From Halostella pelagica (GTDB taxonomy: Archaea; Halobacteriota; Halobacteria; Halobacteriales; Natronoarchaeaceae): a stretch of DNA of 64,000 nucleotides. Position numbers and translations under genes: made by a program. The notes under the pieces are model-generated. The model had not been told where the DNA came from, searched no databases, and saw only the letters and a program-made list of their open reading frames with translations. Location of the stretch: assembly GCA_005954745.1 (NCBI GenBank), contig CP040678.1, forward strand, positions 2,356,001 to 2,420,000, written 5' to 3'. Below, piece by piece: positions 5,241-23,325 of the stretch; within the stretch, counting starts at the first letter, position 1; each line of letters opens with the position of its first letter.

Positions 5241-6019
5241 CACCCATCGATGTCGCGATGCCGACCCACAGGTCTGAGCCAGTGATCGGCGAGACGTTAG
5301 ACTGCCTCTCACGAGCAGAACGAGAGAGCGCAATCGAGATCGAGCAGCTGGTCCTCGTCGACGATAACAGCGCCGATGGAACGCTTGCGGTGGCGCACGA
5401 CCGCTCCGAAGAACACGGCTGGACGCTGACCGAGATCGTGGCGGAGACGTCTCTCCCGGAAGCCCGCAAGCGAGCTATCCGGGCAGTGACGGCCGACTGG
5501 TTCCTCTTTCTCGACGACGACGTCCGCCTGACCGAACATTACCTCGATCACATGCTGGACGCCGTGGCACCGCTGGTCGGCGGGATTCAGGGTCGGAAAG
5601 TCTCACGCACAGAGAACCCGTCCGACTGGGTCCAGCGCCGCTCGCGACGCGCCGGTACACACGCGACTCTCCTCCGACGGGACGCCGTAGAAGGTGTATC
5701 GTTCCCGCCGGACCTGCACGTGCTAGAGGACGAGTACCTCCGCAGGTACGTCGAATCTCGCGGGAACGTCTGGGTGTTCAACCACCGGGCCCGCTTCGAA
5801 CACGCGAACCAGGAGCGTCACCCTATCGGCTGGCAGGAGGGATATCTTGGAGGGAAGTACGACCTTTCGCGGTTCCAGGATGTCGCGTTGAATGTGCCGT
5901 TTGCTGCGCTCACGGGACGGAACCCACTCCCGCACGCCAGGCGCGCTACCGGGTGGCTCGCCGGACGACTCGCACGCCAGCACGGAGGTGAGCCAGGTGG
6001 CGACTCAGCGAGTGCTTGA
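5237..6019 (+). CDS. Family 2 (GT-A) glycosyltransferase
   Basis: The N-terminus has the nucleotide-sugar binding strand (DVAMPTH), then LVLVDDNSADGT and the metal-binding FLDDDVR, the classical GT2 order. A later EDEYL acidic motif is a candidate catalytic base region. There is no membrane segment, so the enzyme is cytosolic or peripheral. The ATG at 5237 is preceded by a strong Shine-Dalgarno (AGGAGG at 5224-5229) and overlaps the previous stop. It probably modifies a lipid, surface glycan or virion glycoprotein together with the following methyltransferase; the acceptor is unknown. Confidence 0.85.
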   Translation: MTPIDVAMPTHRSEPVIGETLDCLSRAERESAIEIEQLVLVDDNSADGTLAVAHDRSEEHGWTLTEIVAETSLPEARKRAIRAVTADWFLFLDDDVRLTEHYLDHMLDAVAPLVGGIQGRKVSRTENPSDWVQRRSRRAGTHATLLRRDAVEGVSFPPDLHVLEDEYLRRYVESRGNVWVFNHRARFEHANQERHPIGWQEGYLGGKYDLSRFQDVALNVPFAALTGRNPLPHARRATGWLAGRLARQHGGEPGGDSASA

Positions 6020-6464
6020 TATCGGCTGCGGTGATAACAAGCGAGACCCTGATGCCGTCGGTATGGATATCCGGCCGTACGACGCCGTGGATGTCATCCA
6101 CGATCTCGACGAGACGCCGTGGCCGTTCGACGACAACGAGTTTGATCGGATAGACGCGTACAGCGTCCTCGAGCACGTCGAAGACCTTCCAGCGGTGATG
6201 GCTGAGATTCATCGCGTCTGTCGCGACGGTGCCGTTCTGGAGGGGAAGGTCCCGCACTGGAAAGACCGCAACGCGTACATCGATCCCACGCATTCCCAAT
6301 CGTTCGACGAGCGAACGTTCGATTTCTGGGACTCGACGACGGAGTACGGTAAGCGGGACTACTTCGATACAGAGTTCCAGGTGAGGACGTCCGAACGGAT
6401 CAGCAGGCTACAGTTCTGGAAGTCGCGCCCGATCGAGTTCGAACTGGTTGTCCGGAAGTACTGA
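5997..6464 (+). CDS. Class I SAM-dependent methyltransferase (~155 aa)
   Basis: Motif I is LDIGCGDNKRDP just after the start. GMDIRPYDAVDVIHDLDETP and SVLEHVEDLP follow, typical of the Methyltransf_11 group that often acts in glycan or lipid clusters. I favour a GTG start at 5997, preceded by GGAGGTG and overlapping the glycosyltransferase end by 23 nt; an in-frame GTG at 5988 is an alternative. The last base of its stop codon is the first base of the target duplication of the downstream transposon, so the transposon left this gene intact. Confidence 0.8.
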   Translation: MATQRVLDIGCGDNKRDPDAVGMDIRPYDAVDVIHDLDETPWPFDDNEFDRIDAYSVLEHVEDLPAVMAEIHRVCRDGAVLEGKVPHWKDRNAYIDPTHSQSFDERTFDFWDSTTEYGKRDYFDTEFQVRTSERISRLQFWKSRPIEFELVVRKY

Positions 6465-6471
6465 TTCATAT

Positions 6472-6488
6472 GGCTCTGTTGAAATCCT
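6472..6488 (+). repeat. Left terminal inverted repeat of the transposon
   Basis: Seventeen bases, GGCTCTGTTGAAATCCT, directly behind the ATTCATAT target duplication copy at 6464-6471. Confidence 0.85.
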
Positions 6489-6523
6489 CAGAGGGTTACA
6501 CGTCCGCCCGATAGTGTGACCAG

Positions 6524-7345
6524 ATGCAGGCCCTCCCGAAGTCGCGGTTACTCCGGTTTGTCGAGCAGGCATTCCACTTGGCTCAACGAGCTGTCGCCCG
6601 CTACTCCTCGAAGTTCTCAAAACGACGCTACACACTCCATCAGCACATCGTTCTACTCTGTCTCAAAGTTCGGAAGAACACGACGTATCGGGCGCTTCTC
6701 GACGAACTCATCGAGATGCCCCGCATTCGAAGCGCCATCAACTTGGACGAACTCCCGTCACCCTCGACGTTGTGCAAAGCGTTCAACCGACTCGATATGG
6801 CTGTCTGGCGTGTTCTGCTTACCCTCTCGGTCACGCTTCTCCCAACTAACGGTATCGTTGGGATCGACGCTTCAGGGTTTGACCGGAGTCACGCTTCGAA
6901 ACACTACACGAAGCGAACGAAGCTAACGATTCAGCAGTTGAAGGTGACACTTTTGGTGGATACGAGGTCGAACGCGATTATCGACATACACGTAACGACG
7001 ACACGAAAGCACGACTCAAAGATTGCGCCGTCGCTCATTAAGCGGAATACCGGGGCAGTGGCGGTTCTCCTTGGCGAGAAAGGATATGACGACCAGAAGG
7101 TTCGCGCGTTGGCCCGTGAAACTGGTGTTCGCCCGCTCATCAAGCACCGCGAGTTCTCGTCACTCCACAAAGCGTGGAACGCTAAACTGGATGCCGACCT
7201 CTACGGTCAGCGCAGTCAGAACGAGACCGTAAGTTCTCGCCTCAAACGCAAGTACGGTGCATTCGTCCGCTCACGGCGCTGGTGGAAGCAGTTCCGAGAA
7301 CTCGTTGTCGGCTGTCTCACTCACAACATCGACAAAGCACTCTGA
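6524..7345 (+). CDS. IS5-family transposase (273 aa)
   Basis: A DDE transposase that looks complete. The first catalytic Asp lies in GIDASGFDRSH (~113), the second in LLGEKGYDDQKVR (~190), and the Glu in QRSQNETVSSRLKRKYG (~235). The helical N-terminus is DNA-binding. It opens about 50 bp inside the left inverted repeat, as usual for single-ORF IS elements. No frameshift is seen, so the element may still be active. Confidence 0.9.
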   Translation: MQALPKSRLLRFVEQAFHLAQRAVARYSSKFSKRRYTLHQHIVLLCLKVRKNTTYRALLDELIEMPRIRSAINLDELPSPSTLCKAFNRLDMAVWRVLLTLSVTLLPTNGIVGIDASGFDRSHASKHYTKRTKLTIQQLKVTLLVDTRSNAIIDIHVTTTRKHDSKIAPSLIKRNTGAVAVLLGEKGYDDQKVRALARETGVRPLIKHREFSSLHKAWNAKLDADLYGQRSQNETVSSRLKRKYGAFVRSRRWWKQFRELVVGCLTHNIDKAL

Positions 7346-7391
7346 ACGTTAGATATAGAGTGTGGGTCTAACAGTTCATAGCAGACGAGGC

Positions 7392-8030
7392 TCACTCCCC
7401 CGGATTTTGCGCAAACAGAATTTCCGCTGCATGCTGGTGCGGTTCGCTCCCGGAGTCATCGTCAAATACAATCTCGTCGTATTGAATCGTCTTCCAGTCC
7501 TCGTAGTGGTCTGCCAGTTCACCCGGATCGTAGAAGTACTCGTTTTCCGTCCAGTCCGGAGGCGTTGGGATATCGGGGTGGTCGATGAACGCAAAGATGG
7601 CGTGAACCCCGTTGGGGTTCGTTTGAGACTTGAAATGGTCGAACTGTCGATCCCGGTTTTCAGGATGGATATACTGGACTGCCCCTGCCGAGTAGACAAC
7701 ATCAACGCTCGTAGGGAGGGTCAGTCCGTTCGCATCTGACCGAACCGTTTCAATATCGACGGCTCGACGCTCGGCGAGTCGTTTTGCCTTCTCCAAACCG
7801 TTCCGAGACACATCGACCGCATATACCTTCCACCCGTGCTCGGCGAAGAGAACGGAGTCCCTCCCTTCGCCAGCACCGATGTCGATAGCTGTTGGTTCAT
7901 TCGCTACGCTGGACGCAATCTCGACCGTTCGTTCGGCCATTTGGTTCGGTTCCGTCCCCCAATAATACTCTTTCCTCCCATAGACTTGTTCCCGTTCTTC
8001 AAAGTTCATCGCTTGCTGCTTTTTACTCAA
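7392..8030 (-). CDS. Passenger class I SAM methyltransferase, TehB-like (212 aa)
   Basis: Motif I is AIDIGAGEGRDS (~50-60), then KVYAVDVSRNGLEKAKRLAE and DVVYSAGAVQYI, the pattern of TehB/Methyltransf_11-type enzymes. It lies wholly inside the transposon, transcribed towards the transposase, so it travels as cargo. TehB-like enzymes methylate tellurite or other small molecules (known); the substrate here is unknown. A protective or DNA/antibiotic-modifying role would explain its selection as cargo, but that is inference. Confidence 0.82.
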   Translation of the reverse strand: MSKKQQAMNFEEREQVYGRKEYYWGTEPNQMAERTVEIASSVANEPTAIDIGAGEGRDSVLFAEHGWKVYAVDVSRNGLEKAKRLAERRAVDIETVRSDANGLTLPTSVDVVYSAGAVQYIHPENRDRQFDHFKSQTNPNGVHAIFAFIDHPDIPTPPDWTENEYFYDPGELADHYEDWKTIQYDEIVFDDDSGSEPHQHAAEILFAQNPGE

Positions 8031-8099
8031 CCCCGTTAATAGTGGTAGACTCGCACACCTACCTAACGGCTATTCCAGCGAGACAACTGTTGGAACGAT

Positions 8100-8116
8100 A
8101 GGATTTCAACAAAGCC
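8100..8116 (-). repeat. Right terminal inverted repeat of the transposon
   Basis: The complement reads GGCTTTGTTGAAATCCT, one mismatch from the left end, and is followed by the second ATTCATAT copy at 8117-8124. Confidence 0.85.
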
Positions 8117-8122
8117 ATTCAT

Positions 8123-8365
8123 ATGAGGAATACCAGAGTCACCAGTCAGTTCGTTATCGGATTCGTCAGCGCGTTCCTCCTACTCGCAGGTATCGCCCTT
8201 CTGTCGCAGGCTGTTGCCTGGTTCAATATTAATCCGCAACCGCAGGCATTCCTCGAGTTCCTGAATACGCCGCTGTTCTCGCTCCTCGATATCTTCACTG
8301 TGCTGATCGGGCTGCTGCTACTCGGGGTGGTGGTGACCGCGCCTGTGTGGGGTCCGAAACCGTGA
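8123..8365 (+). CDS. Small two-TM membrane protein (80 aa)
   Basis: Two hydrophobic segments (about 9-31 and 52-75) with a short polar loop. The start codon lies at the right copy of the transposon target duplication, so before the insertion the gene followed the methyltransferase directly and probably belonged to the same operon. No family is recognised. Its stop overlaps a tiny GTG-started ORF. Confidence 0.55.
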   Translation: MRNTRVTSQFVIGFVSAFLLLAGIALLSQAVAWFNINPQPQAFLEFLNTPLFSLLDIFTVLIGLLLLGVVVTAPVWGPKP

Positions 8366-8433
8366 GTGATCATTACGTCGACGCTCTCCGGCGGGCGCTT
8401 GACGACGCAGGCGTTCCTCAGACCGACGATTAA
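8362..8433 (+). CDS. Possible 23-aa coupled micro-ORF
   Basis: GTG at 8362 overlaps the previous stop (GTGA). The frame encodes a short amphipathic acidic helix (DALRRALDDAG) before TAA at 8431-8433. It is typical of small coupled ORFs in haloviral operons but too short to be sure. It ends within the terminal bases of the convergent recombinase gene. Confidence 0.25.
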   Translation: MSDHYVDALRRALDDAGVPQTDD

Positions 8434-9089
8434 AGACCGTATAGCTCTGCCCGCTCGTTGACTGCTCGCCGCACTGTCCGCCGCGACGAATCGAGTTCCT
8501 GCGCTGCCTGTCGTTTGCTCATGTCACCGCGCGCAACTTGGTCGAGAACCGTCACGACGCGCTGGTAGTTGTCATCCTCGACGAGAGCGCCGTCGCGCTT
8601 CGCGAAACCAATCGGCGCTGGTCCGTGGCGATACTCGTCTGACTCTTGGCGAGCCTGAATCCCCTCGCGGATGTTCTGGCGCTTGATTCGGGCCTCCAGT
8701 TCACCGAACACGCCGAGTAGCTGGAACAGCGCGCGCTGGTACGGGTCCTCCTCGTCAGGGCGCATCACGAGGCCTTCCGAGACGATGTGGAGTTCGACGC
8801 CGTGATCACGGAGTCGGTCGGCCGTCCGTTCTAGGTCCGAGATCGAGCGCGCCACGCGTGTGACCTCGTGCGCGACAACCTCGTCCACCTCGCCGGCCTC
8901 GACGTCGTCCATCAGGCGCTGGTAGTCTTCACGAGCAGCGGTCGACGTGCCGGTGGCCTTGTCTCGATAGATGTCGAGATCGCCCAGGTCCGCGCCGAGT
9001 CGTTGCTCGGCGTATTCTTTTGTCGATGTCAGTTGCCGGTCGAGGTTCTGTTTCGCGGTCGAAACGCGGACGTAGCAGGCGGTGCTCAT
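8430..9089 (-). CDS. Serine recombinase (resolvase/invertase family, 219 aa)
   Basis: The N-terminal catalytic domain begins CYVRVSTAKQNLDRQL, with the nucleophile Ser in RVSTAKQ, the arginine-rich HEVTRVARSISDL, and the long helix that ends ...ARIKRQNIREGI. A C-terminal helix-turn-helix (MSKRQAAQELDSSRRTVRRA) binds DNA. I prefer the ATG at 9089; a GTG lies two codons upstream. Such small recombinases resolve plasmid multimers or invert segments (known). It marks the right end of the viral/plasmid module next to the CRISPR array. Confidence 0.9.
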   Translation of the reverse strand: MSTACYVRVSTAKQNLDRQLTSTKEYAEQRLGADLGDLDIYRDKATGTSTAAREDYQRLMDDVEAGEVDEVVAHEVTRVARSISDLERTADRLRDHGVELHIVSEGLVMRPDEEDPYQRALFQLLGVFGELEARIKRQNIREGIQARQESDEYRHGPAPIGFAKRDGALVEDDNYQRVVTVLDQVARGDMSKRQAAQELDSSRRTVRRAVNERAELYGL

Positions 9090-9255
9090 GCCCACCCGTT
9101 CGTTGTCTTAAAACCTAGTCTTTACGCCCAGTCTGGGCAGGCTCTACAGTCTCTGCCCTCCTGGTATCGTAGTTCTATACCTGTACGACAACATCTCATA
9201 TAGTACGGAATTCGATTGTGTTACGGCCGATCCCGTGACCACTCTCGACTGTGGC

Positions 9256-12200
9256 GCTTCAACCCTACAAAGGTCCGTCTGTAACACGGGATCGAAATCC
9301 TGGCCCGCGGATACCGTGACACTTCAATCCCACAAGGGTCCGTCTGTAACCTCATGACCGAGTTAACGATGGGGTCGGACGCGGGACTTCAATCCCACAA
9401 GGGTCCGTCTGTAACCACCTCCGGTCGTGTCCTTGCCCTCGGGTACGCGCAGACTTCAATCCCACAAGGGTCCGTCTGTAACTCCGTCGAATCAGCCATC
9501 GTCAGCGGCTTGCCGACACTTCAATCCCACAAGGGTCCGTCTGTAACATTGTCGTGCTCACACCATAATGGATGTTGGCATAACTTCAATCCCACAAGGG
9601 TCCGTCTGTAACCCCGCTGTGAGCCTTCCCGCTCGACAGCCCGTCACTTCAATCCCACAAGGGTCCGTCTGTAACCGTGGCCGACGTTCGTGTCCATCTG
9701 CACAACCCCGACGGACTTCAATCCCACAAGGGTCCGTCTGTAACCCAAGACGAGACGATCGCACCGCCTATCAAAATCACTTCAATCCCACAAGGGTCCG
9801 TCTGTAACCGATGACTGGCGCTGAGGGGTCCACGGACGGTACTACTTCAATCCCACAAGGGTCCGTCTGTAACCGTTGAAACTGCTTGGACGGTGACGCA
9901 CTTCGGGGATTAACTTCAATCCCACAAGGGTCCGTCTGTAACGCTTTGATGCCTCTGTCACAATCGCGTTCAAAGCGCCACTTCAATCCCACAAGGGTCC
10001 GTCTGTAACGGCCCCGAGCAGTCCCTCAACCCTGTTTTCGGTCTGACTTCAATCCCACAAGGGTCCGTCTGTAACCCGCGTCCCGGTCCCTTTTTGAGAT
10101 CCCCACAGTCCAGTAACTTCAATCCCACAAGGGTCCGTCTGTAACCTACGTCCGCTACATCGGGAGGGCCTCACGATGACGACTTCAATCCCACAAGGGT
10201 CCGTCTGTAACCCGGAAGGCCGATGTCGCCCGGCCGGTCACGCCGACACTTCAATCCCACAAGGGTCCGTCTGTAACCACGTTCTGCGTTGGTTCAGGAC
10301 GCTCTTGAGAAGACTTCAATCCCACAAGGGTCCGTCTGTAACTGTCGTTTAGGGGTCGGTTGAGGTCGGGCACCTCACTTCAATCCCACAAGGGTCCGTC
10401 TGTAACGCGTGGGCCTTCCGTGTCGATGGGGTCGGTCTCCTCACTTCAATCCCACAAGGGTCCGTCTGTAACGAGTATCGGAACGGTGTCAGAGACGGTG
10501 ATACGCTGACTTCAATCCCACAAGGGTCCGTCTGTAACCATAGCCCAGCGAGTTCAGCGCGTTCGTCCAGGCATCACTTCAATCCCACAAGGGTCCGTCT
10601 GTAACAACAACCTGCCCGGCAGTGACAGCCGCCGAAGCAGTACTTCAATCCCACAAGGGTCCGTCTGTAACTTTCCGAATGTCGTGTTGAGTGATCTCGG
10701 AGAATTTACTTCAATCCCACAAGGGTCCGTCTGTAACGTGCTGTCGCACTCGGGACAGGCCTCGGTCGGCGTACTTCAATCCCACAAGGGTCCGTCTGTA
10801 ACCCTGCCGCAGATTCCGTTCCTTGGTGTTCTTGACTTTACTTCAATCCCACAAGGGTCCGTCTGTAACTACTCCGAGGGCGAGGCGTACTTGGTCGACC
10901 CCACACTTCAATCCCACAAGGGTCCGTCTGTAACTGAAACCGTCAACGGCCAGACGTTCATCGACATCACTTCAATCCCACAAGGGTCCGTCTGTAACGC
11001 ATCTTGCTCCGCGTTGGGCCGGGATGCAAGTTGAACTTCAATCCCACAAGGGTCCGTCTGTAACCGGAGTATCAGGTCCCCCGACCGCCCGACGCGGGTC
11101 CACTTCAATCCCACAAGGGTCCGTCTGTAACGTTTGCGGACTCTCGACTCCATGGAACCGCGGAGGACTTCAATCCCACAAGGGTCCGTCTGTAACCGTT
11201 TGGTTTCAACAGTGACATCCCCCTTTGGCGGTTCACTTCAATCCCACAAGGGTCCGTCTGTAACAACGTGGTCACCTATCCCGAAGCGTCCCAGGTCGTA
11301 CTTCAATCCCACAAGGGTCCGTCTGTAACTCATGGAGTCGTCGCCGGGGTCGTTCCATGTGTGACTTCAATCCCACAAGGGTCCGTCTGTAACCGCCATC
11401 GAAGCCGTTGAGGACCGCGTGATAGCAATCACTTCAATCCCACAAGGGTCCGTCTGTAACGGTCCCATACCTGTGCCTGGTCATGCTCGTCAATCAACTT
11501 CAATCCCACAAGGGTCCGTCTGTAACCGTCAAACCCTGTAGTTGCGCCGCGTTGCCGTCTTTACTTCAATCCCACAAGGGTCCGTCTGTAACACGCCTCC
11601 ACGACCGCGACGCCGACCGTCTCTCCCGCACTTCAATCCCACAAGGGTCCGTCTGTAACGCTCTGCTCCTTCTGCGAGAGATTCGATTCGCACCCACTTC
11701 AATCCCACAAGGGTCCGTCTGTAACGTCGGCGCTCGACGGGATGTCGAGATACCCGTAGAGACTTCAATCCCACAAGGGTCCGTCTGTAACTGAATCGCA
11801 GTGAGTCTCTTCGTGTCGGCCTTCGTACTTCAATCCCACAAGGGTCCGTCTGTAACAAGTACCTCTCTCGACGCGTCAAGGCCGACGAGGGGACTTCAAT
11901 CCCACAAGGGTCCGTCTGTAACTGAGCATAACGCCCCTCCCGATATGCCCGTTGATACTTCAATCCCACAAGGGTCCGTCTGTAACTCTATGCATCGGAC
12001 AATAACGACGCGCTGTATCAGTTACTTCAATCCCACAAGGGTCCGTCTGTAACAAGCGCTCAAACGCCAGCACGGAGTCCGAATAGGGTTCACTTCAATC
12101 CCACAAGGGTCCGTCTGTAACAACGTCTCGGTTTCCTCGGTCCCGAGCAGGTCCCGACTTCAATCCCACAAGGGTCCGTCTGTAACGCAGTACGGCCAGC

Positions 12201-12320
12201 CAACCGACGCCGAGCAACGAGGTACTTCAATCCCACAAGGGTCCGTCTGTAACTTGCTGGATGAGTCCCTGCATGAGTTACCACGTGCTGACTTCAATCC
12301 CACAAGGGTCCGTCTGTAAC
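9256..12320 (-). CRISPR. CRISPR array 1: 47 repeats of 30 bp, 46 spacers
   Basis: In the transcribed (minus) sense the repeat starts GTTACAGACGGACCC and ends TTGTGGGATTGAAGT. Spacers are about 34-40 bp. All copies look identical except the one at 9256-9285, which has several changes; a decayed terminal repeat marks the leader-distal end, so the leader is at the high-coordinate side. The repeat is close to the known haloarchaeal type I-B repeat, so Cas6 cutting should leave the 8-nt handle ATTGAAGT. Spacers are not visibly repeated, which points to a large stored memory. Confidence 0.97.
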
Positions 12321-12424
12321 CATGGCTGATTTGAAAGCTATAACGGCTCTATCTCTCGAAATCACATCAAGATTTCCATCGACCACCAATAACCCCTCAA
12401 CCCCGGGGGGGTTGATGAAAGACT
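12321..12424 (-). promoter_or_regulatory. Leader of CRISPR array 1
   Basis: An AT-richer block between the last repeat and the cas2 remnant. Read on the minus strand it contains TTTCATCAACCCCCCCGGGG and, nearer the repeats, a run of A/T. A closely related block (TTCCATCAACCCCCTCGGG) stands at the same end of array 2, which supports leader identity and minus-strand transcription. Confidence 0.7.
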
Positions 12425-12598
12425 CTATAGAAATTGTTCATCTTTCATTGGGTCATCGCCAAACACGGGGCGCTCAACGTATTTCTCCGATGCTTCAGTG
12501 AGTTTCCCTTCCAACACCGAGTTCTGGACGCGAGTAAGATATCGCCGGAACCCTTTGAGGAACTTCGACGTTCGTTCAGGCTGTACGTCGTAGACAGA
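12425..12598 (-). pseudogene. cas2: cas2 remnant, start lost and centre deleted
   Basis: Read on the minus strand the frame gives 57 residues. It opens with VYDVQPERTSKFLKGFRRYL and LTRVQNSVLEGKLTEA, the typical haloarchaeal Cas2 beginning with the conserved Asp of the first strand. It then jumps to VERPVFGDDPMKDEQFL and a stop, the typical Cas2 end. About 30 middle residues are missing in frame, and no start codon remains; an in-frame stop lies just upstream (12599-12601). The position after cas3 and before the array leader is where cas2 belongs. It cannot encode a working Cas2. Confidence 0.88.
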
Positions 12599-12680
12599 TT
12601 ATTCGCGGCGACCTCAGTATAGACATCTTTCCGCCTAGTCCCAACCTCGAAGGCAAGCGGGCAGGATTCATAGGCCTATT
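12599..12680 (-). other. Deletion scar between cas3 and the cas2 remnant
   Basis: These 82 bp stand where cas4, cas1 and the start of cas2 would be expected. On the minus strand a short open stretch reads ESCPLAFEVGTRRKDVYTEV before AANNL; I do not recognise it as Cas4 or Cas1. It may be the end of a lost gene or foreign DNA brought in with the deletion. Confidence 0.5.
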
Positions 12681-15323
12681 TTAGACTTCTGAGTCTTCAG
12701 AAACCTCTTTTCGTCTCACGCCCTGTCCTGAAGTTACCGTGTATGAATCCGCTATGTCAGACACTCGTAGGGCCTTTAGGCTTTGATCGAGAGGCGGCTC
12801 ATTAACTGGAACAGAGACGACGGTCTCCTTCAGCTGTTGGAATGTCTCACGAGCATCGCCCCACTCCGCCGCCTCTTGCTGTCGCTTGTATGTATCATAG
12901 CACTTGACTTCTGAGTCGCTGACGAGCACGATAAAATCTCGCGTTGAATAGTCTGAACTCACTAATGATGCATTTCTGAGCTCCCGTCCTTTCGCGGAAT
13001 CGAATGCATCGACGAGATCATCGGCTCGCTTGCCGGTCTTTCGTTGCTGATGAAGATTTTCATAGTACCACTCTACTCCGCGAGTTATCATTGAAGCTTC
13101 CGTGAGTATCGTAGAATCAAGGTCTGCCTGCAGATTACAGAGTGCAGTTTGCGTAGGACGAAGAAGTGATCGCTCGCCATATATGAGCTGGCTTGGAATG
13201 TAGTTCTTCTCTGGGGGACTATCGAGACGCCAAACGGTGACTGATGCAACTGCCCCTTTGAATTGACGATTACATCGTCCTGCCGCTTGGACGATTGCGG
13301 GCAGTGGTGCGTAATCGCGGTAAAGGGAGTCGAAGCTTAGGTCTACACCTGCCTCGATGAGTTGTGTTGAAACAGTAATCGTAGGGACTGCGTCGAACGG
13401 CGTCGAAACGCCGGGGTCCAGAATCCGATTTAATGCACTGAGCAACGCACTTCGGTCCCTTGGACGGAGACGTGTTGTGAGCGTGGCGACGATACTATCG
13501 GCCTCTGGATGGGCCTGTGCGAGTCGAACGAGGTACTCGTCCGGGTCGAAAGCCTTGGATCCGATCTCACGAAGATACGGCAGTAATTCTGCCGCGAGAC
13601 TGATGCGAGACTCTGACGAAAGCGCTTCAGTAAGGGCTACTGCGCAACCGACAGTATTCACGACCGCAAGAGAGTTCGTTTCAGCTGTTAGTTCTCCGTC
13701 GATTTCTGCTGCGGCGTCCGTAATCGACAATGGATCTGGTCTATCTCCATTGAGGTGAGCGACCAAACTCTCGTGAAGATTGAATTCGACCCGCGGCACA
13801 TCGCCGATTAACTCGGTACACTCAGACTGGAGATTCACGAGTGGCGCCGGATCTGGGGCCTCCGGCAACCGTTCGAGAATCCGCGGTTGGGTCGCAGTCA
13901 TGAAGATAAGTGTTGCATTGTACTCTGAGGCGAGATGGCTGGTAAGCCGGCCAATGAGCGCCCACCAGTCAAGCGAGATCGCCTGTGGTTCGTCGACGAG
14001 AATGATACTGTCCTGTAATGCCGGTAACTTCGTCGACTGTACGTTTCGGGGTCCCGCCGCACTTTCAAAGAGCTGAGTAAATGTTGTGAGGACCAGCCCG
14101 GAACGCCACGACTCTGCGTGAAGTGTCTCTTGGCCTGAACTCGCAGTATCGGTGAAGTCGTCGTCTTCGTTGGGAACCGTGCGCGTGTCCGCTAAATGGT
14201 GGTGCTTGGTGTACGCAGCGTCCATCGGTGAAACGCCGAATACCTCCTGAATTTGTTCGTCGACCTGGTCGATGATGGAGGTGTACGGAAGAGCATAGAT
14301 AACCCGGCTATTCTGTTGTTTCGCAAGTTTAAGCGTAGCTCGGAGTCCAGTATATGTCTTCCCGAAGCCAGTGGGGAGGGTAAGCTTGAATACGCGGTCG
14401 CCGTCATTGTACCGATCGAGAAGCGTTCTTGTTGCTCGGCCGTTCGCTGCTGTCTGGATTGCGGCGAGTCGCTGGTCGACAGTCGCCTCTGACGATGGAA
14501 GCGCCTTCCACGGTGATTCAAGATACGAGGTGGCCTGTGTTCCATCGGGGAGTTGGGTTTCTGAGAGGCTTCGAATCTCCTGAGTAAGATTCGTTGCGAC
14601 CGGACGGGAGATGTCTGTCAAGGAGTCCAGATCGTTAACTGAGGTGAGGTTACTGGCATCAAACTTGTCGGCGGTGACGAGTGTCGACCACGCTCGGAGG
14701 ACACATCCATAGAACTCGGGGTTAGAAACGGCCGATTTCAGATTCGCAATCGTCTTTCGAGCGGTCGCAAGCCCATCTTTCGTGAGGTCGTTCCATCTGT
14801 ATTCGCCATCCGTAGCTTGTTGAAGAATGATGTCTGCAGCTGCGGCTGCAGTCTCGTCGATATTCGCAAACTGCTGTTCGGCGACATCGTACCGCCCATC
14901 GACGGCTGACTTGTATTGATAATAACTTCCGAGATCGGCCTGGACGTTCTGTAGTACCGAGTGGTGTTTTGCGACCGCATAGAAGCCCGCTGCTGTCGTT
15001 TCGGGAGAAAACCCACGGCGAGCTAGCACGACTGCCGAGACGAGACCACCGAATACTCCGTGATGCGTTAGTTCGGTCGACTCAGCGGCCATCCTGTTTT
15101 CAGTTGTGACGTAGGTCTGGAAGTATTCAGTGAGTTTCCCGATATCATGAGTCCACGCAAGCGTCTGCATGACGGCGTCCCAGTCGTCACCGTACGGCGT
15201 CTCTCCGGCGTTCTCAACGAGCGACTGGCTCACTCTTGCGACCCCACCGAGATGATTGTCGAGAGTCTGGTCTGGTCGAGCGTAGAACGTAGAAAGCGGT
15301 TCGCCGGAAGTCACAGGAAGCAA
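12681..15323 (-). CDS. cas3: Cas3 HD nuclease-helicase, type I-B (880 aa)
   Basis: Degrades target DNA after Cascade binding. The N-terminal HD domain has WTHDIGKL (His59-Asp60) and later AKHHS. The SF2 helicase has Walker A PTGFGKTYTG (~318), motif II DEPQ (~444), motif III MTATQPR, and motif VI QAAGRCNRQ (~640). Length and domain order match full-length single-chain Cas3. The start overlaps the cas5 end by 13 nt. It is the last intact gene of the cas operon and looks free of frameshifts. Confidence 0.95.
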   Translation of the reverse strand: MLPVTSGEPLSTFYARPDQTLDNHLGGVARVSQSLVENAGETPYGDDWDAVMQTLAWTHDIGKLTEYFQTYVTTENRMAAESTELTHHGVFGGLVSAVVLARRGFSPETTAAGFYAVAKHHSVLQNVQADLGSYYQYKSAVDGRYDVAEQQFANIDETAAAAADIILQQATDGEYRWNDLTKDGLATARKTIANLKSAVSNPEFYGCVLRAWSTLVTADKFDASNLTSVNDLDSLTDISRPVATNLTQEIRSLSETQLPDGTQATSYLESPWKALPSSEATVDQRLAAIQTAANGRATRTLLDRYNDGDRVFKLTLPTGFGKTYTGLRATLKLAKQQNSRVIYALPYTSIIDQVDEQIQEVFGVSPMDAAYTKHHHLADTRTVPNEDDDFTDTASSGQETLHAESWRSGLVLTTFTQLFESAAGPRNVQSTKLPALQDSIILVDEPQAISLDWWALIGRLTSHLASEYNATLIFMTATQPRILERLPEAPDPAPLVNLQSECTELIGDVPRVEFNLHESLVAHLNGDRPDPLSITDAAAEIDGELTAETNSLAVVNTVGCAVALTEALSSESRISLAAELLPYLREIGSKAFDPDEYLVRLAQAHPEADSIVATLTTRLRPRDRSALLSALNRILDPGVSTPFDAVPTITVSTQLIEAGVDLSFDSLYRDYAPLPAIVQAAGRCNRQFKGAVASVTVWRLDSPPEKNYIPSQLIYGERSLLRPTQTALCNLQADLDSTILTEASMITRGVEWYYENLHQQRKTGKRADDLVDAFDSAKGRELRNASLVSSDYSTRDFIVLVSDSEVKCYDTYKRQQEAAEWGDARETFQQLKETVVSVPVNEPPLDQSLKALRVSDIADSYTVTSGQGVRRKEVSEDSEV

Positions 15324-16075
15324 ACTGAGCGGTCGCCAACAGTCATTACCGGTGCGTCTGGAGCAGTTAGCGTCTCATCACCGGGCGCATACCCGTAGGA
15401 GACGAACCCAGTCGTCTGTCGGCCCCCCTCGTCGGCAACCATGTACGCTGGCGTCCGCTCCATCCGAAGTGGTGTCCCCGGCGTCGGGACAACATATTCC
15501 TCGGGAACCGTCGACGAGATGCTGTCCGTATCACCGCCGGCCTCCACTGTTGAACGGGTAACATCAGTAATATCGGCTAGACACTCTGATTTTCCGAGGA
15601 ACGGGGTGTACGTTGATCGACCCGTTTCGAGGAACTCGTAGAGCCGTTCGAACGTCTCCGTATCATTAAGGACCAGATCAATGCGATAGGCCGCGTCGAC
15701 GATGTACTCGAAGGTTCGCCGCTTCCGTTCCGTGGCGATGGTCTCTGGGTCAACGACCGTTTTCCCGGACACGCCGTCGGCGGTTTTGATATCGCCGGCC
15801 GTCGTCGGCAGCATCAGCATCGGGATGGACTGCGTCTCAAGCTCACACTGGGGTGAGATAGCGATAGCTGACGCGTCACGGGCGAATGTATCGTAATACG
15901 AGTCGCGTGGCTCTCCGAGAACGGCCGCGATGAGGCCAGCGGCAGTTGTCCGGGGTATCACCCGGTAAGTGAGTTTTTCAGTCGTCGTGTCGATGCGCCG
16001 GAAGTGCGCCCATGGCCCTTCGACCGTGAAAGACAGGCACTCCCGGCCGGCGACATCTATATTTGTGGTAGCCAT
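15311..16075 (-). CDS. cas5: Cas5, type I-B Cascade subunit (254 aa)
   Basis: Binds the crRNA 5' handle in Cascade. The N-terminal RAMP segment reads CLSFTVEGPWAHFRR and is followed by TYRVIPRTTAAGLIAAVLG, the Cas5h/Cas5b signature. The start shares one base with the cas7 stop region, so translation is coupled. Length is normal for haloarchaeal Cas5. Confidence 0.93.
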   Translation of the reverse strand: MATTNIDVAGRECLSFTVEGPWAHFRRIDTTTEKLTYRVIPRTTAAGLIAAVLGEPRDSYYDTFARDASAIAISPQCELETQSIPMLMLPTTAGDIKTADGVSGKTVVDPETIATERKRRTFEYIVDAAYRIDLVLNDTETFERLYEFLETGRSTYTPFLGKSECLADITDVTRSTVEAGGDTDSISSTVPEEYVVPTPGTPLRMERTPAYMVADEGGRQTTGFVSYGYAPGDETLTAPDAPVMTVGDRSVCFL

Positions 16076-17121
16076 CAGGCGTAGGGGTCGACCTCGTCGA
16101 CCATGTCGTCGCCGACGGCGTCCTCTAGGGCACTGACAAGATGATCCAGACCACCGGTCTCGTCGTTGGCCTCGACCGTGAGGTGACGGTCAGCGGTGAC
16201 CTTGACTGTCGCGATGTGATCGCTGTACTCGCTAAGATCGGTGAGCAGGTCGTCGATTCCAAGAACGACGTCCGTGATATTCCGGAGTTCCGTATCGGGA
16301 ACGTCTCCAGTGAGTTCTATTCCGTCATCGAGAGTCCCGATATGGAATGCGTCCGTCTCATACTCGACTCGGAGGTACAGTCGGGGTTGGTGGCCCATCT
16401 TCGAACGCGTTAACGTCTGGTTCTTCACGGCACGCCACAGCAGCGTGTCCAGTCGCTCAACGTCCGACTCGCTAAGGAGGGTATCATCAGCACCGACCTC
16501 GTTGACGATCCCGTGGAAGGGGATGAACGCGTACTGCAGTCGATTGTCGGTTGCGAACGTTCCCTGCTCGGCGTCTCCACCACTGGAGACGACTGTCGAG
16601 AGTTGCTTTGACTCACTCTTCTGGACGACCGTGTTCAGACTGCGCGCATGTGAAAACTGTACTGGACCGATAAACTGGCCCGGAAAACCCTCTCCCAGTT
16701 CGCTCTGGAAATTACTGCTGAACGAACACGTTGCACCGAAGTAACGCGCATCGGTTGCGTTCATTAGGAATGCGTCAGCGGCCTCACTGCCGCTCATATC
16801 GCCGAGGTCGTCCTCTTCCAAGCCGGTTACCTGTGTAAACAGGTCATCCCGGTCCAGCACGGCATCAGCATCGCTCTTCGTCGGGTTCTGGATGTACACT
16901 CCGAACCCGTCGTCATCAAGCTGATCGCGTAGATAGCGCTTGAGGCGAACGTCGGTGACGACAGCGGCGCCCGTCGTCTCGTCGATACGAGGCTTGTCGT
17001 TCGCTGAAAGCGGATTGCCGTTCGGATTAGTGTCTTCCGCGTCGTACGCGAAGACGATTTCAGAGCGGTTCGTCACAGTGTCAGTACCGTCGGTATCGGC
17101 GGTGGTAGAGTCAGTGGACAT
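16075..17121 (-). CDS. cas7: Cas7 (Csh2-like), Cascade backbone subunit (348 aa)
   Basis: Forms the crRNA-coating backbone. After an acidic N-terminus, EIVFAYDAEDTNPNGNPL is the hallmark start of the Cas7b/Csh2 family; VRLKRYLRDQL and GPVQFSHARSLN are further family segments. Three nucleotides separate it from cas8b. Length is normal and no defect is seen. Confidence 0.95.
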   Translation of the reverse strand: MSTDSTTADTDGTDTVTNRSEIVFAYDAEDTNPNGNPLSANDKPRIDETTGAAVVTDVRLKRYLRDQLDDDGFGVYIQNPTKSDADAVLDRDDLFTQVTGLEEDDLGDMSGSEAADAFLMNATDARYFGATCSFSSNFQSELGEGFPGQFIGPVQFSHARSLNTVVQKSESKQLSTVVSSGGDAEQGTFATDNRLQYAFIPFHGIVNEVGADDTLLSESDVERLDTLLWRAVKNQTLTRSKMGHQPRLYLRVEYETDAFHIGTLDDGIELTGDVPDTELRNITDVVLGIDDLLTDLSEYSDHIATVKVTADRHLTVEANDETGGLDHLVSALEDAVGDDMVDEVDPYA

Positions 17122-17124
17122 TGG

Positions 17125-19374
17125 TTATGCGGTAGGTTCGGTTTCAGTCGTTTGTTCGTCTTCAGCGTCCTGCAAACTCGAATCGTTAAGTCCGTAGGCT
17201 ATGCCCAGGCTGTACAGCCACTGCAGTTCAGCCTCAGTGAGGCTCCACGAACTCGGATCGGTCGCAAGCATGGTGTCGGTAAGCCGATCCGTGTAGCGGC
17301 TGTTCGTTCGGTATGAGCGCTTTTCATCGGCCTCGGCGTATGAGTTCTGCATCTGGAGAACCTCCTTGGTGACTTCCTTGACCGTCTGCTTGGTCAGGTA
17401 ATCCACCGGGTACCGGCGGATGAGCGTGGAGGAGATCTCCTCGTAACTCTGATATGCCGAGATGCGGCCGATCAGGCCGCCGAGAACGAATACTGCCTCC
17501 TGAGCATCATCGGCGAGCGCATCGTGGCTCTCGATGAACTCTTCGAGGCGGTCGCTACGGTTGTCGAAATCGTTTGTCATCGTTGTGGTAGTGAAGGGGA
17601 TCGTGTCGGCCGTGTCGAGTGCGTCGACGGAAGTCAACGCACGAAGCTGTACGTACTGTTCGACGACACTGCGCTTCGGGAACGAAATGTAGTTATCGTC
17701 GCTTCCGAACTGCTCGTTCTGGTCCTGGACGAGTTGGTGGATGTACTCCTCTAACAGCGCGCTCGCGTCGATGGCGGTCTCGGTCAGGAGACTTCGGACG
17801 CGACCCATTCGGCTGTCGTCGATATCGCCAGCGCCTGGCGTCTCGCTCGCAGTCCGACTGCTTCGGGTGGGTTCAGTGGTACGCTGGAAGTATCCACCGT
17901 ACAGGATGTACCGTGTGAGGGTGAGACCGTGTCCGAGTAACGGACTCGACTCCGGAACCGGAGCGTCGTTGAAGATTCCTCCACGGTCAAACACGTCACT
18001 GTCAGCTTGTGTTACGTCGTTATGCGCGTCTTCAAGTGCGACAGCCGGTTCGACTCCATCCAGCGTGTCGAAGAACACCCGGTCCGGATTACCGGTTACT
18101 TGGTAGACAACCGCGAATCGGACGCTGTCCCAGTCCGATCTGTCCTCATCCGCGAACAGTCCCTCCACTTCGTCGTCGTCGTCATCAGCGTCGGGAGAAT
18201 CGTCTGTCCGTGAGGCATCGATGAACAGCTCCTCGACTGTGTCGTCGAAGTCGCCGTCGCTTCCGCTTTCCGCCGATTGAATCCTCTTGTAGACGTTATC
18301 ATGGAACCACGAGAACGTCTCCGGGTCGGTTTCATCGCTCCGTGCTGCGAGATACGGAAGGACGTACAGCCGGCGGTTGTTCCCGAGGCCGCGGAAGAAG
18401 TCATCGAAGAGCGACCCCGCTGCGGCAACTGCCGCAGCAGTGTCGAATTCCAGTGGCCGGGCTCGCCACGCGGACTCACCGCCAGTGTCGAGATCGGCGA
18501 AGTGTTCGCGCTGTTTCTTTCCAAACATCCCGAAGAGACCGGGCGATCCACCGGTAACTTCCGCCTCGTCACCCGTCACGTATCCCGTCCCATCGTCGCT
18601 GGCATCGTCGACGGAGATATTCTCCAAGCGTTCGGCTTTTTTCGCCCGCATTACCTCGTTCAAGACTGGAATCTCGCCGGGGAGCTTATATTCGTCTCCG
18701 TCCGGGAGACGGACAGCTATCGTAATGAGTGCGTCAATCTCCTCGTCCTCGCTTTCGACGAGGTCGAGGAACGCGTCGGCGAGGCGGTCCATCGTCGCCT
18801 CGTCGTCGCCCAGGTCCGCGAGAGCATCGAGAATGGCTTCATCCTCTGCGTCTGAGTCCTCGCGCACCTGGTTGGCGAACTCGCTTTGTGCCCAATCGGT
18901 GAACCGGTCCTGGATATTGTTTGTTCCCCACGCGTCGTCGCGCAGGCCTGCGATGTGGTGGGCGTTCGCGTTCTTGTGGGTCGTGATTGAGTAGTCTGTC
19001 ATGCTACTCGTCTTCCCCTCCGGGTACGCGTGTCCCACCCGAAACCGGTCGGCCGCAGTGTAGGTCGTGATCTCGACCGGACCTCCGTTATCCTCGGATC
19101 GCAGTGACGGATCATCAGGATCTGAGAGGTCGACGTAGACGGCGACTAAACTGTCTTCGTCGCCAAATAACCCGCTTTTCGCACGTGGCGTCAGATACGC
19201 CAGATGCTCTGGCGCGAAATCCCAATCGATAGCGTCTGATTGGGCAGAATCATGCCAGTCAAGCAGGGAGTACTGCCAGGCGACCTCGTACAGCGATGCA
19301 GGGATACGGTTCTGCATCCGGCCGACTGCCGTGGCGGCGGAATCGTCACTCGGCATGGTTTCTGATGTTGACAA
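17125..19374 (-). CDS. cas8b: Cas8b, type I-B Cascade large subunit (749 aa)
   Basis: Identified mainly by place and size: a ~750-aa, strongly acidic protein between cas6 and cas7, as in haloarchaeal I-B loci. In known systems the large subunit recognises the PAM and recruits Cas3. The N-terminus (IPASLYEVAWQYSLLDWHDS) and the middle (AYPEGKTSSMTDYSITTHKN) look like Csh1/Cas8b. The start lies 29 nt inside the cas6 end. Confidence 0.88.
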   Translation of the reverse strand: MSTSETMPSDDSAATAVGRMQNRIPASLYEVAWQYSLLDWHDSAQSDAIDWDFAPEHLAYLTPRAKSGLFGDEDSLVAVYVDLSDPDDPSLRSEDNGGPVEITTYTAADRFRVGHAYPEGKTSSMTDYSITTHKNANAHHIAGLRDDAWGTNNIQDRFTDWAQSEFANQVREDSDAEDEAILDALADLGDDEATMDRLADAFLDLVESEDEEIDALITIAVRLPDGDEYKLPGEIPVLNEVMRAKKAERLENISVDDASDDGTGYVTGDEAEVTGGSPGLFGMFGKKQREHFADLDTGGESAWRARPLEFDTAAAVAAAGSLFDDFFRGLGNNRRLYVLPYLAARSDETDPETFSWFHDNVYKRIQSAESGSDGDFDDTVEELFIDASRTDDSPDADDDDDEVEGLFADEDRSDWDSVRFAVVYQVTGNPDRVFFDTLDGVEPAVALEDAHNDVTQADSDVFDRGGIFNDAPVPESSPLLGHGLTLTRYILYGGYFQRTTEPTRSSRTASETPGAGDIDDSRMGRVRSLLTETAIDASALLEEYIHQLVQDQNEQFGSDDNYISFPKRSVVEQYVQLRALTSVDALDTADTIPFTTTTMTNDFDNRSDRLEEFIESHDALADDAQEAVFVLGGLIGRISAYQSYEEISSTLIRRYPVDYLTKQTVKEVTKEVLQMQNSYAEADEKRSYRTNSRYTDRLTDTMLATDPSSWSLTEAELQWLYSLGIAYGLNDSSLQDAEDEQTTETEPTA

Positions 19375-20119
19375 AGCCGAAACCCAGGGAGTTTCGTTCG
19401 CCGATACCTACGTCCAGTGCGAGATTCAGATGGCGACGGTGATCGTCGTCTCGTACCGTATATTCGAATCGCCATTTGCTCAACACCCACGTCTCTTGAA
19501 TACCGGTGGTCGGCGTCACCGGGATAGCGAACGTCTTAATGAGTTCGTAGCTGTCGAAGAGTTCGCCATCGACGTCCGATGGGCCGGGGAGATAGTCCGG
19601 ACAGAACAGGCCGTGTTTCTTGTCCAGGTTCGCCTCGATCTGGTTCCGAAACGGTTCCATCGTGTGTTCCGGCTGCCAGTATTCAGCCTCCTCGTGGTCG
19701 GTGTCGATTCCGTACTCGTCAAAGCGCCACGGTGGGATTCGGACGAGTACGCCGGTCCCAGTTTCGATGGTCCCGGTAGTCCCTGGCTCACCCACGTCAG
19801 GCGCGAGGGCGGACATCTCCTTGACAGAGAAGGGCATCTCTCCAACGTTGAGTTCTCGATCTTGCTTGAGATCGGTCGCGACGTAGCTGAGTAGCTCCTC
19901 ATGGGGCGACGCGATGAGCAGTGTACGCTCGTCTCCCTCTTGCATATCGCCCGGCGGGAACGGATTTGAATACGTGAATCCCTTCGGCCGGTTCTCGTCG
20001 TGGGTCGATCCGTAATCTGTGCCCTCGAGTGCGTCCCAGATGCGGCCGCGAAGCTTGTGATGGTACGCGTTATCGTACGCTGCGTCAGCGCGGGCTTCGA
20101 GGCGCGCTAACACGCGCAT
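19346..20119 (-). CDS. cas6: Cas6 crRNA-processing endoribonuclease (257 aa)
   Basis: Cuts the repeat to release crRNAs. A His-rich segment NAYHHKLRGRIW (~18-29) is the likely catalytic His region, and the C-terminal glycine-rich loop GIGERNSLGFGFVN is the Cas6 hallmark. First gene of the cas operon, with a TATA element about 70 nt upstream. Confidence 0.93.
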   Translation of the reverse strand: MRVLARLEARADAAYDNAYHHKLRGRIWDALEGTDYGSTHDENRPKGFTYSNPFPPGDMQEGDERTLLIASPHEELLSYVATDLKQDRELNVGEMPFSVKEMSALAPDVGEPGTTGTIETGTGVLVRIPPWRFDEYGIDTDHEEAEYWQPEHTMEPFRNQIEANLDKKHGLFCPDYLPGPSDVDGELFDSYELIKTFAIPVTPTTGIQETWVLSKWRFEYTVRDDDHRRHLNLALDVGIGERNSLGFGFVNIRNHAE

Positions 20120-20187
20120 CCGGTCATCTCACCTCCGTTCCTTCGATTACTCGTGTCACTACGGTTTCAACAGTGCAGTGTCGGGTA

Positions 20188-20199
20188 CTTAAAATAAAG
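20188..20199 (-). promoter_or_regulatory. Putative promoter of the cas operon
   Basis: The minus strand reads CTTTATTTTAAG, a TATA-like element in an AT-rich patch between array 2 and cas6. Start of transcription would fall near 20165, leaving a 5' UTR of about 45 nt. Confidence 0.5.
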
Positions 20200-20263
20200 T
20201 GTCGAGAAGTGTAAGTGGTCCTGATTCACCACCGCATGATGAGTCCTTGAGGATCTGTGAGGG

Positions 20264-20820
20264 TATTCAACCCCACAAGGGTCCGTCTGTAACTCGGAGC
20301 TCCAAGAGATCGACGTCGAGGCCCCTGACCAGCTTCAACCCCACAAGGGTCCGTCTGTAACGCGGCGGGGCGCTCGGCTCGGTCGGCATCGCTGCCGGGC
20401 TTCAACCCCACAAGGGTCCGTCTGTAACCTGGAGTACCTCGCTGACATCGACGCCGTCGACGAGCTTCAACCCCACAAGGGTCCGTCTGTAACGCCCTGT
20501 CCGACGCCGCGCGGCTGTACGTCGACCTCGCTTCAACCCCACAAGGGTCCGTCTGTAACCGTTGACGTGATGTACCTCCACCCAGTTCCGGTTGCGGCTT
20601 CAACCCCACAAGGGTCCGTCTGTAACTCGGGACCCGATCAACGTGGGCGCGGGGACGGTCCAGCTTCAACCCCACAAGGGTCCGTCTGTAACTTTCTCGG
20701 CTACATACTCCGGCACCTCCGACGGACTGCTTCAACCCCACAAGGGTCCGTCTGTAACCCGTCCAGATCCGTGGTGTGGACCTGCCCGAAGCTTCAACCC
20801 CACAAGGGTCCGTCTGTAAC
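20264..20820 (-). CRISPR. CRISPR array 2: 9 repeats of 30 bp, 8 spacers
   Basis: The transcribed repeat starts GTTACAGACGGACCC and ends TTGTGGGGTTGAAGC. It differs from array 1 in two bases, both inside the presumed 8-nt crRNA handle (GTTGAAGC instead of ATTGAAGT). The copy at 20264 is altered at its edge, so the leader-distal end points to the cas operon. Spacers are about 35-39 bp. The array uses the same strand as array 1 and flanks the cas genes on the other side. Confidence 0.97.
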
Positions 20821-20985
20821 CATGGGCAATTCACCGCCCTTACACCCCTCATCTGGCCGTTCGCACTTTACCGTTTCCGTCGACCCGCAATCGTGGCTGA
20901 TCCCGAGGGGGTTGATGGAAATCTCAGTGAGAAGAGAGCTTATCCCAACAGATCCAAGAGCACCAACGAAAGCGCGTCTATTCAT
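20794..20985 (-). pseudogene. Possible Tat-signal protein fragment overlapping the leader of array 2
   Basis: From an ATG at 20985 the minus strand encodes MNRRAFVGALGSVGIS, very like the start of haloarchaeal Tat lipoproteins. After ~20 residues the likeness ends, no lipobox follows, and the frame runs through the leader into the first repeat. This may be the 5' end of a gene cut off when the array was placed here. Chance resemblance is possible. Confidence 0.3.
20821..20940 (-). promoter_or_regulatory. Leader of CRISPR array 2
   Basis: Contains TTCCATCAACCCCCTCGGG on the minus strand, closely related to the block beside array 1, at a comparable distance from the first repeat. Upstream DNA becomes AT-rich (20985-21060). 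Confidence 0.6.
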
Positions 20986-21070
20986 GTCGCTAGGACCAGA
21001 TCCAAATCATTTGTATCTTACTTACAGCTATCTGCAAAACTTATCACGCTGTTTTGAGAGATAACGATCA

Positions 21071-21370
21071 ATGGAACAGTGTCGTATCTGCGGAGACGAA
21101 GCGCGTCATCCGTACACATGCAACTACTGTGGCGGGACTCACTGTTCGAGTCATCGCCTTCCCGAGAACCACAGCTGTAGCGGTCTTGACGGAGCAAGTA
21201 GCGACCAATGGATGTCAGAGAAACACAAAACGCACAAGCGACGCGGAACCACTGTGAGAAGTAGCAGCAACCGTTCAAAGGCCGATTCGTCGACAACCAT
21301 CCCGAAGTGGGTGATCACAGTCTCCGTAGTCCTTGTTATACTGATTCTCGTCGGCATATATCTCGCTTAG
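21071..21370 (+). CDS. AN1-type zinc-finger membrane protein (99 aa)
   Basis: Residues 1-40 carry a Cys/His series (CRICGDEARHPYTCNYCGG, then HCSSH and HSC), matching an AN1-type zinc finger. A basic, Ser-rich linker leads to one C-terminal membrane helix (~77-97). AN1 fingers with a membrane anchor are common in haloarchaea (known); function is unclear. It stands alone between array 2 and the replication module. Confidence 0.75.
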   Translation: MEQCRICGDEARHPYTCNYCGGTHCSSHRLPENHSCSGLDGASSDQWMSEKHKTHKRRGTTVRSSSNRSKADSSTTIPKWVITVSVVLVILILVGIYLA

Positions 21371-21373
21371 ACC

Positions 21374-21399
21374 GGACCGGAAGGACCGGAAACAACCCC
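21374..21399 (+). repeat. Origin-like repeats upstream of orc1
   Basis: Two tandem GGACCGGAA units (21374 and 21383) followed by ACAACCCC, 37 nt before the orc1 start. A near copy, including the CCCC end, lies at 22535-22559 behind the gene in the same orientation. This fits an origin recognition (ORB-like) element of a plasmid-type Orc1 origin. Confidence 0.65.
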
Positions 21400-21435
21400 A
21401 ATTCGCTTTTATATCCTGTCTGAACAGTATGACTC

Positions 21436-22440: not shown

Positions 22441-22559
22441 GGCCGGAAAGAGCGGAAGCGGACCGGAAACGGACCGGAAATTCGGATTCTCTGTTTTCAC
22501 CGTCTCTTCGTTCCATCCTCGCCCGAATCGGCAAGGACCGGAAGGAACGGAAACACCCC
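22441..22559 (+). repeat. Origin-like repeats downstream of orc1
   Basis: GGCCGGAAAG (22441), GGACCGGAAAC (~22460), GGACCGGAAAT (22471) and GGACCGGAAGGAACGGAAAC (22535) are direct repeats in an otherwise gene-free gap. The last block closely matches the one upstream of orc1. Together they look like iterons of a replication origin. Confidence 0.65.
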
Positions 22560-22596
22560 GGTTTCGCCTATGTAGGTCCGGGGTGCCCGTCTGAGT

Positions 22597-22881
22597 ATGG
22601 CACTGAGCCGACGAGAATCAGAACGGATCCGCACAGAGAAACTCGACCTCTGGCGCGAGTTGCACATCGACGTTAGACCGAAGAAAGCGACCATCGCGCA
22701 GCACGGAGCGTCGGGCTACGACGGATACACGGGGCTGTTCAAGATCCGTCACGACGGTCGGACGTGGTGGCTCGGCGTTACTGACGAGCGCGAGGCAGAC
22801 CTAATGGACGGGCCGCGGCCGCTCCCGGAGTGGCTCGACGAGGTCCTGTTTCACATGGGCGTCGACGAGGTCGAGGAGTGA
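22597..22881 (+). CDS. Hypothetical protein of the replication module (94 aa)
   Basis: A small soluble protein with a basic N-terminus and an acidic C-terminus. A central strand-rich part (YTGLFKIRHDGRTWWLGVTD) looks like a compact beta fold. No motif gives a function. Found between the iterons and a convergent repressor gene, so it is probably an accessory plasmid gene. Confidence 0.6.
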   Translation: MALSRRESERIRTEKLDLWRELHIDVRPKKATIAQHGASGYDGYTGLFKIRHDGRTWWLGVTDEREADLMDGPRPLPEWLDEVLFHMGVDEVEE

Positions 22882-22901
22882 TGTGGGAGACTGATAAGGG
22901 G

Positions 22902-23180: not shown

Positions 23181-23214
23181 GAACAAAGAGAGTGTCGACG
23201 AAAACATAGTGAAC

Positions 23215-23325
23215 CCGTTAAGCAGAGTATAGATTGCTTACTACATAAATTGTATACTAATGAAACAGATTTGGATATGGTAGAGAAAGAATTATATTGC
23301 TATAGTATATCTTGTTCGATAGGAA
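23215..23325. promoter_or_regulatory. AT-rich divergent promoter region
   Basis: The most AT-rich stretch nearby, with TATAGTATAT at 23301-23310 as a plus-strand TATA candidate. It separates the phiH1-type repressor from the zinc-ribbon/PadR gene and is the natural place for repressor binding. Confidence 0.4.

Follow-up and report, generated by a model that had tools for sequence, protein, structure and literature searches.

Known effector exchanges and adaptation-less type I-B systems

In situ exchange of effector modules beside a fixed cas6, array and adaptation genes is established (PMC6452270, review 2019), and escape from anti-CRISPRs has been proposed as its driver (PMC6452270). Type I-B systems without adaptation genes have been described in haloarchaeal proviruses of Haloferax lucentense, Natrinema salifodinae and Halobacterium GSL-19 (PMC12596717, 2025). 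The locus studied here lies in the window, the whole 64,000-nt stretch of DNA analyzed, which is part of the 3.2 Mb contig C1 of a haloarchaeal genome of four contigs. Like the proviral systems (PMC12596717), it is an interference-only I-B locus with arrays and without cas1, cas2 and cas4. However, its effector and Cas6 do not fall within the proviral clade: GSL-19 is placed on the window clade's side of the effector tree, yet on a separate branch, its Cas8b is 28% identical to that of the window, and its Cas6 also sits on a separate branch. Unlike the proviral systems, the window clade carries a canonical-type cas6 and stubs of adaptation genes.

The canonical I-B system of Haloarcula marismortui pNG400 resembles the window locus in gene order, repeat, leader and Cas6 type, but the effector proteins are distant (Cas8b 31%, Cas7 45%, Cas5 44% and Cas3 33% identity) and pNG400, unlike the window, has a complete cas4-cas1-cas2 set. 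The window locus is probably a chimera that arose by in situ exchange, in which a foreign I-B effector cassette replaced that of the resident system and left a cas2 scar. The lost adaptation genes would then be only half of the story, and a similar replacement most likely took place several times in related species. As in the described exchanges (PMC6452270), the effector genes of the window clade appear to have been swapped while the neighbouring cas6 and CRISPR array stayed in place. Unlike those exchanges, in which the adaptation module typically stays, this effector lineage has lost adaptation in every member, and stubs of the apparently displaced module mark the junction. A distinct second lineage such as this one, which couples effector exchange to adaptation loss and retains readable stubs of the displaced system, was not found in the literature searched.

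Layout of the window locus

The window carries a cas6-cas8b-cas7-cas5-cas3 operon flanked by two CRISPR arrays, with all of these features on the minus strand. The cas6 gene (19346..20119) is of the canonical I-B type. The four genes that follow, cas8b (17125..19374, TM1802 family per the annotation of relatives), cas7 (Csh2, 16075..17121), cas5b (15311..16075) and cas3 (HD nuclease and helicase, 12681..15323), lie within the putative foreign cassette. Array 1 (9256..12320) comprises 47 repeats of 30 nt and 46 spacers, with its leader end at 12320 and a degenerate repeat at the opposite end. Its leader (12321..12424, minus strand) is homologous to canonical haloarchaeal I-B leaders, with locus L094 scoring best and L110 equal. 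Array 2 (20264..20820) has nine repeats, which differ from those of array 1 at two positions, and eight spacers. In this genome, the 30-nt I-B repeat is found solely at these two arrays.

The NCBIfam profiles for Cas5h, Csh2 and Cas6 score above cut-off, the window cas8b matches the Cas8b/Csh1 profile significantly (E 5.9e-23) though under cut-off, and in cas3 the HD domain is above cut-off and the Cas3 helicase slightly under. Since cas6, cas8b, Csh2, cas5b and cas3 share one operon next to arrays, the locus is of type I-B, as its annotated relatives are typed, but it lacks the intact cas4, cas1 and cas2 downstream of cas3 that a complete I-B locus would have. An earlier note on this DNA had described an intact interference set and two arrays with 54 spacers in total; all five genes are indeed full length, and a recount of the spacers (46 + 8) gives the same total.

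The adaptation module downstream of cas3 consists of a cas2 stub alone (12425..12598, minus strand), of the canonical I-B type. It reads as 57 open codons (12428-12598), preceded immediately by a stop codon and without a start codon, and ends in its own stop codon at 12425-12427. In a whole-genome search, the stub exceeds the cut-off of Pfam CRISPR_Cas2 (E 7.9e-7). Aligned to Halocatena Cas2, it matches residues 7-40 and 66-87, with the 25 residues between absent; at the DNA level, the window aligns with the canonical locus L094 over 12301-12481 and 12495-12595, two segments separated by a 75-nt gap on the window side. These alignments, one of which the earlier note had called for, bear out its description of a startless 57-residue cas2 fragment with a missing centre, and its statement that cas4 and cas1 are absent from the locus likewise holds. 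The 82 nt between the cas3 stop and the stub (12599..12680, minus strand), the putative right-hand junction of the foreign block, have no significant match to cas1.

For the window considered alone, a simple deletion would suffice: an I-B locus with this type of effector, once complete, would have been stripped of its own cas4 and cas1 and the greater part of cas2, and local deletions leave stubs with an internal gap such as the 75-nt one here. The relatives of the locus bear directly on this alternative.

An effector clade without complete adaptation genes

The nearest relatives, on a Haloferax larsenii plasmid and on Halalkaliarchaeum pAArc-CO, have no annotated cas4-cas1-cas2 after cas3. 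The effector clade was taken as 19 loci including the window, with Cas8b at least about 47% identical to that of the window, and these loci form a single clade with 100% support in a tree of cas7, cas5, cas8b and cas3 (trees in the present study are quick searches, and the sample consists of species representatives). A complete cas4-cas1-cas2 set is present in none of the 19, two of which are poor evidence, since L057 ends at a contig border and L054 has lost cas7, cas5 and cas3 too. No Cas1 was found in the genome of L057. In the control sample of canonical haloarchaeal I-B loci, cas4, cas1 and cas2 are all present in 50/50 assessable loci; the loci that could not be assessed meet a contig border (L087, L111, L139) or run off the fetched stretch (L136, L137, L138, L140). 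Five loci including Halobacterium GSL-19, plus two more (L060 and L061), branch on the window clade's side of the effector tree, and none has a complete set, L060 being interrupted by a contig border. A complete Cas1 gene is absent from the entire genome in 9/17 clade genomes, one of the nine being just 77% complete.

The absence is thus a property of the clade and not a private deletion, and the earlier note's reading of a locus that lost its adaptation genes does not hold in that form. It also speaks against simple deletion. An assembly error is an unlikely cause of the missing genes, since independently sequenced, unrelated assemblies are in the same state. Repeated decay of the lineage's own adaptation genes, our initial reading, was overturned by the stub comparisons and the stub tree.

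Stubs and Cas6 differ in ancestry from the effector genes

Several members of the clade retain stubs of different lengths. The stub of L056 comprises cas1 73-330 plus cas2, that of L023 cas1 from about 83 plus cas2, and that of L146 cas1 218-330 plus cas2. The cas1/cas2 pieces of L021, L027, L028, L030 and L031 are shorter or broken, and cas2 is the only remnant in L149 and the window. All stub-bearing clade loci lack cas4 and the 5' end of cas1, which also speaks against simple deletion. In L021 (4506-5637, Haloferax larsenii plasmid), the fragments of cas1 and cas2 are found upstream of cas6 and point the opposite way, and the array sits past an unrelated ATPase gene.

The stubs do not share the history of the effector genes. 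Forcing the cas1/cas2 stubs into one clade is rejected (dlnL 205, AU p 4e-61), although the stub rows in this tree are short; the stubs nest in at least four canonical lineages, and well-supported branches require at least four changes. Forcing the Cas6 proteins of the clade together is likewise rejected (dlnL 152, AU p 1.2e-4), with at least six changes. In Halonotius, the stubs are 91-95% identical to canonical cas1/cas2, whereas Cas8b reaches just about 27%. The window shows the same mosaic: its Cas6 is 84% identical to the canonical Cas6 of L096/L103, whereas the adjoining cas8b is only about 30% identical to canonical Cas8b. At one and the same locus, then, cas6 and the adaptation genes follow a phylogeny discordant with that of the effectors, as defined for in situ exchange.

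Stubs derived from one ancestral module should form a clade as the effectors do; they do not, which suggests that they are remnants of the displaced lineages. The earlier note had taken the scar for this system's own cas2, a view at odds with the nesting of the stubs in different canonical lineages beside effectors of one clade. The same scatter, together with the Halonotius values, which a shared ancestral module would not give, makes simple deletion improbable.

In some loci, the two flanks point to the same canonical relative. In L027, cas6 (90%), the cas2 stub and the leader are all nearest Haloarcula marismortui; in L147, cas6 (91%) and the leader are nearest L094; and in L056, cas6, the stub, the leader and an identical repeat are nearest L096/L103. 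The flanks of L146 and L028 are nearest the L100/L129 group, and the L146 repeat is identical to that of L100. The window flanks agree only roughly (cas6 with L103/L096/L094, cas2 with L023/L086/L094, leader with L094/L110), and those of L021, L023 and L149 disagree on the donor. Across all loci, donor agreement is not significant, either between cas6 and stub (p 0.089) or between leader and cas6 (p 0.20).

Borders of the putative exchanged block

The left-hand border is sharp. Across 12 comparisons, similarity to canonical DNA is lost within cas6, 10-40 nt short of its stop codon; the canonical-type DNA of the window ends at 19363, close to the cas8b start and 17-18 nt ahead of the cas6 stop. 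Inside the effector block, nothing but short conserved patches is shared with canonical DNA. On the right, the clade loci have their junction within the adaptation genes or past them; that of the window falls in cas2, about 86 nt past the cas3 stop. Seven members (L022, L025, L029, L030, L049, L055, L147) have their first repeat within 101-145 nt of the cas3 stop, a distance that can hold a leader and nothing more.

The same unit can be seen to move in canonical-side loci. L128 and L100 are nearly identical in cas6 (95%), cas4 (98%), cas1 (99%) and cas2 (98%), with intact adaptation genes, but differ strongly in cas8b (35%), cas7 (60%), cas5 (60%) and cas3 (38%), and DNA similarity returns 7 nt before the cas3 stop. 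This pattern indicates that cas8b-cas7-cas5-cas3 can be exchanged as one unit while cas6 on one side and the adaptation genes on the other stay fixed, and the pair itself appears from the alignments to be a recent complete swap with borders matching those of the window's cassette. More broadly, L128 (G209:C5:44020-57505), L129 and L131 compared with L100/L098 display a clean cas8b-cas7-cas5-cas3 exchange, with cas6 and cas4-cas1-cas2 89-99% identical.

From the mosaicism, we infer that a resident effector was replaced. A foreign cas8b-cas7-cas5-cas3 cassette (about 12608-19362) would have displaced the interference genes in a canonical I-B locus with a full gene set, whose cas6, leader and arrays were retained through the exchange. 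With its right-hand junction inside the canonical adaptation genes, the exchange would have removed cas4, cas1 and most of cas2, sparing just the stub. The foreign effector would presumably use the crRNAs that the canonical-type Cas6 cuts from the existing arrays. The cell would thereby retain its old memory and add no new spacers here, unless the plasmid-borne type I-D Cas1-Cas2-Cas4 serves in trans.

The direction could also be reversed: the adaptation-less cassette would have been the resident, and recombination with canonical loci would have supplied its cas6, its leader and array, and the cas1/cas2 tails. Such capture would account for stubs that are always 3' pieces adjoining the leader, and it is in keeping with the two tandem cas2-leader units of L056, the mixture of two repeat types in the L027 array and the placement of the window locus in an island with an integrase. 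It is nonetheless unlikely, because the canonical cas6 at the other end of the cassette needs a second capture per locus where one replacement explains both, and because the complete L128/L100 swap is a block replaced between fixed flanks. Replacement is therefore preferred to flank capture on the grounds of parsimony and of this example. In L056 (7280-8760), the order is cas3, a near-complete cas2, leader, repeat, cas1 without residues 1-72, cas2, leader and array, the truncated cas1 beginning immediately after the CRISPR repeat.

As a tentative extension of the replacement reading, the cassette may spread recurrently, landing between cas6 and the adaptation genes, taking over the memory and, in this lineage, regularly destroying adaptation. 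If so, the recipient would gain a new effector (e.g. one escaping anti-CRISPRs) while its memory froze and subsequently decayed. Effector swapping would then come at a concrete cost, namely the acquisition machinery, and the stub would reveal which kind of system was overwritten. The precise borders of the cassette, at the cas6 and cas3 stops, lend themselves to a test of a foreign I-B effector on another system's Cas6 and crRNAs.

Genomic setting

The CRISPR locus lies in a low-GC stretch (about 6000-26000, 53-61% GC), with the adjoining chromosome at about 65% GC. This stretch also encodes a DDE transposase (6524-7345), a serine resolvase (8430-9095), a Cdc6/Orc1-like ATPase (21436-22440) and a tyrosine integrase (24657-25700), and it is probably an integrated element. 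No structural virus gene was detected among the eight flanking proteins scanned. Given this low-GC island, the chimera may have been assembled elsewhere and have arrived inside the integrated element.

State of the arrays and the type I-D adaptation set

Inner repeats carry 0.37 substitutions per repeat in the effector clade versus 0.006 in canonical arrays (per-locus Mann-Whitney p 1.7e-7), an excess that stems from a few loci (L147, L055, L030, L025, L027) and is in part due to arrays mixing two repeat variants (L027, L030). L147 and L055 have 36/38 and 22/38 inner repeats mutated, with their interference genes intact, and G487, the genome of L147, has no Cas1 anywhere. The repeat variant switches from the leader side outward in the L027 array after the cas2 stub (19 repeats) and in the L030 plus-strand array (18 repeats), as if two separate arrays had recombined into one. 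Array decay is not significantly greater in genomes without Cas1 (p 0.12).

In the window, 0/52 inner repeats are mutated, which suggests that its arrays were gaining spacers until recently or are still extended in trans; the freeze, if any, would be recent. The intact genes are consistent with an active effector. No target was found for the first 20 spacers in phage records, or for the 21-nt starts of six leader-proximal spacers in IMG/VR.

One complete cas4-cas1-cas2 set of the genome, identified by whole-genome search, lies at 215.5-217.3 kb of contig C3. It is part of a type I-D system (Csc1, Csc2, Cas3', Cas1 of the I-D kind) with two arrays, whose 37-nt repeats are unrelated to the 30-nt I-B repeat. 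This set could in principle serve the I-B arrays in trans and keep them growing, in line with the perfect window repeats and with a proposal made for Haloferax lucentense, whose second system is likewise of type I-B (PMC12596717). The length and sequence of the I-D repeats argue against it, as do the Cas1-less clade genomes and the visible decay of several clade arrays, and we regard such outsourcing as having little chance of being correct. The earlier note had called the system frozen and had suggested a genome-wide search for cas1, cas2 and cas4. That search did find a complete set, half of what the note had named as a refutation, with no sign of its action on the 30-nt I-B repeats; the note's view is upheld insofar as the locus encodes interference genes alone and is probably unable to lengthen its arrays unaided, and is qualified by the existence of the I-D set.

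Under the replacement reading, a single 'lost cas1' anecdote becomes a datable process, in which stub length and repeat decay would serve as two rough clocks of the time since a CRISPR memory froze. Members of the clade would also be natural strains for following immunity without adaptation.

The type I-D locus on C3 (L006 8400-20000 and L007 1-2110) encodes cas6, csc2, csc1, cas3', cas4, cas1 and cas2, and also carries a Csa3 CARF regulator. At this locus, the spacer unit at L007 863-935 is duplicated exactly at 936-1008.
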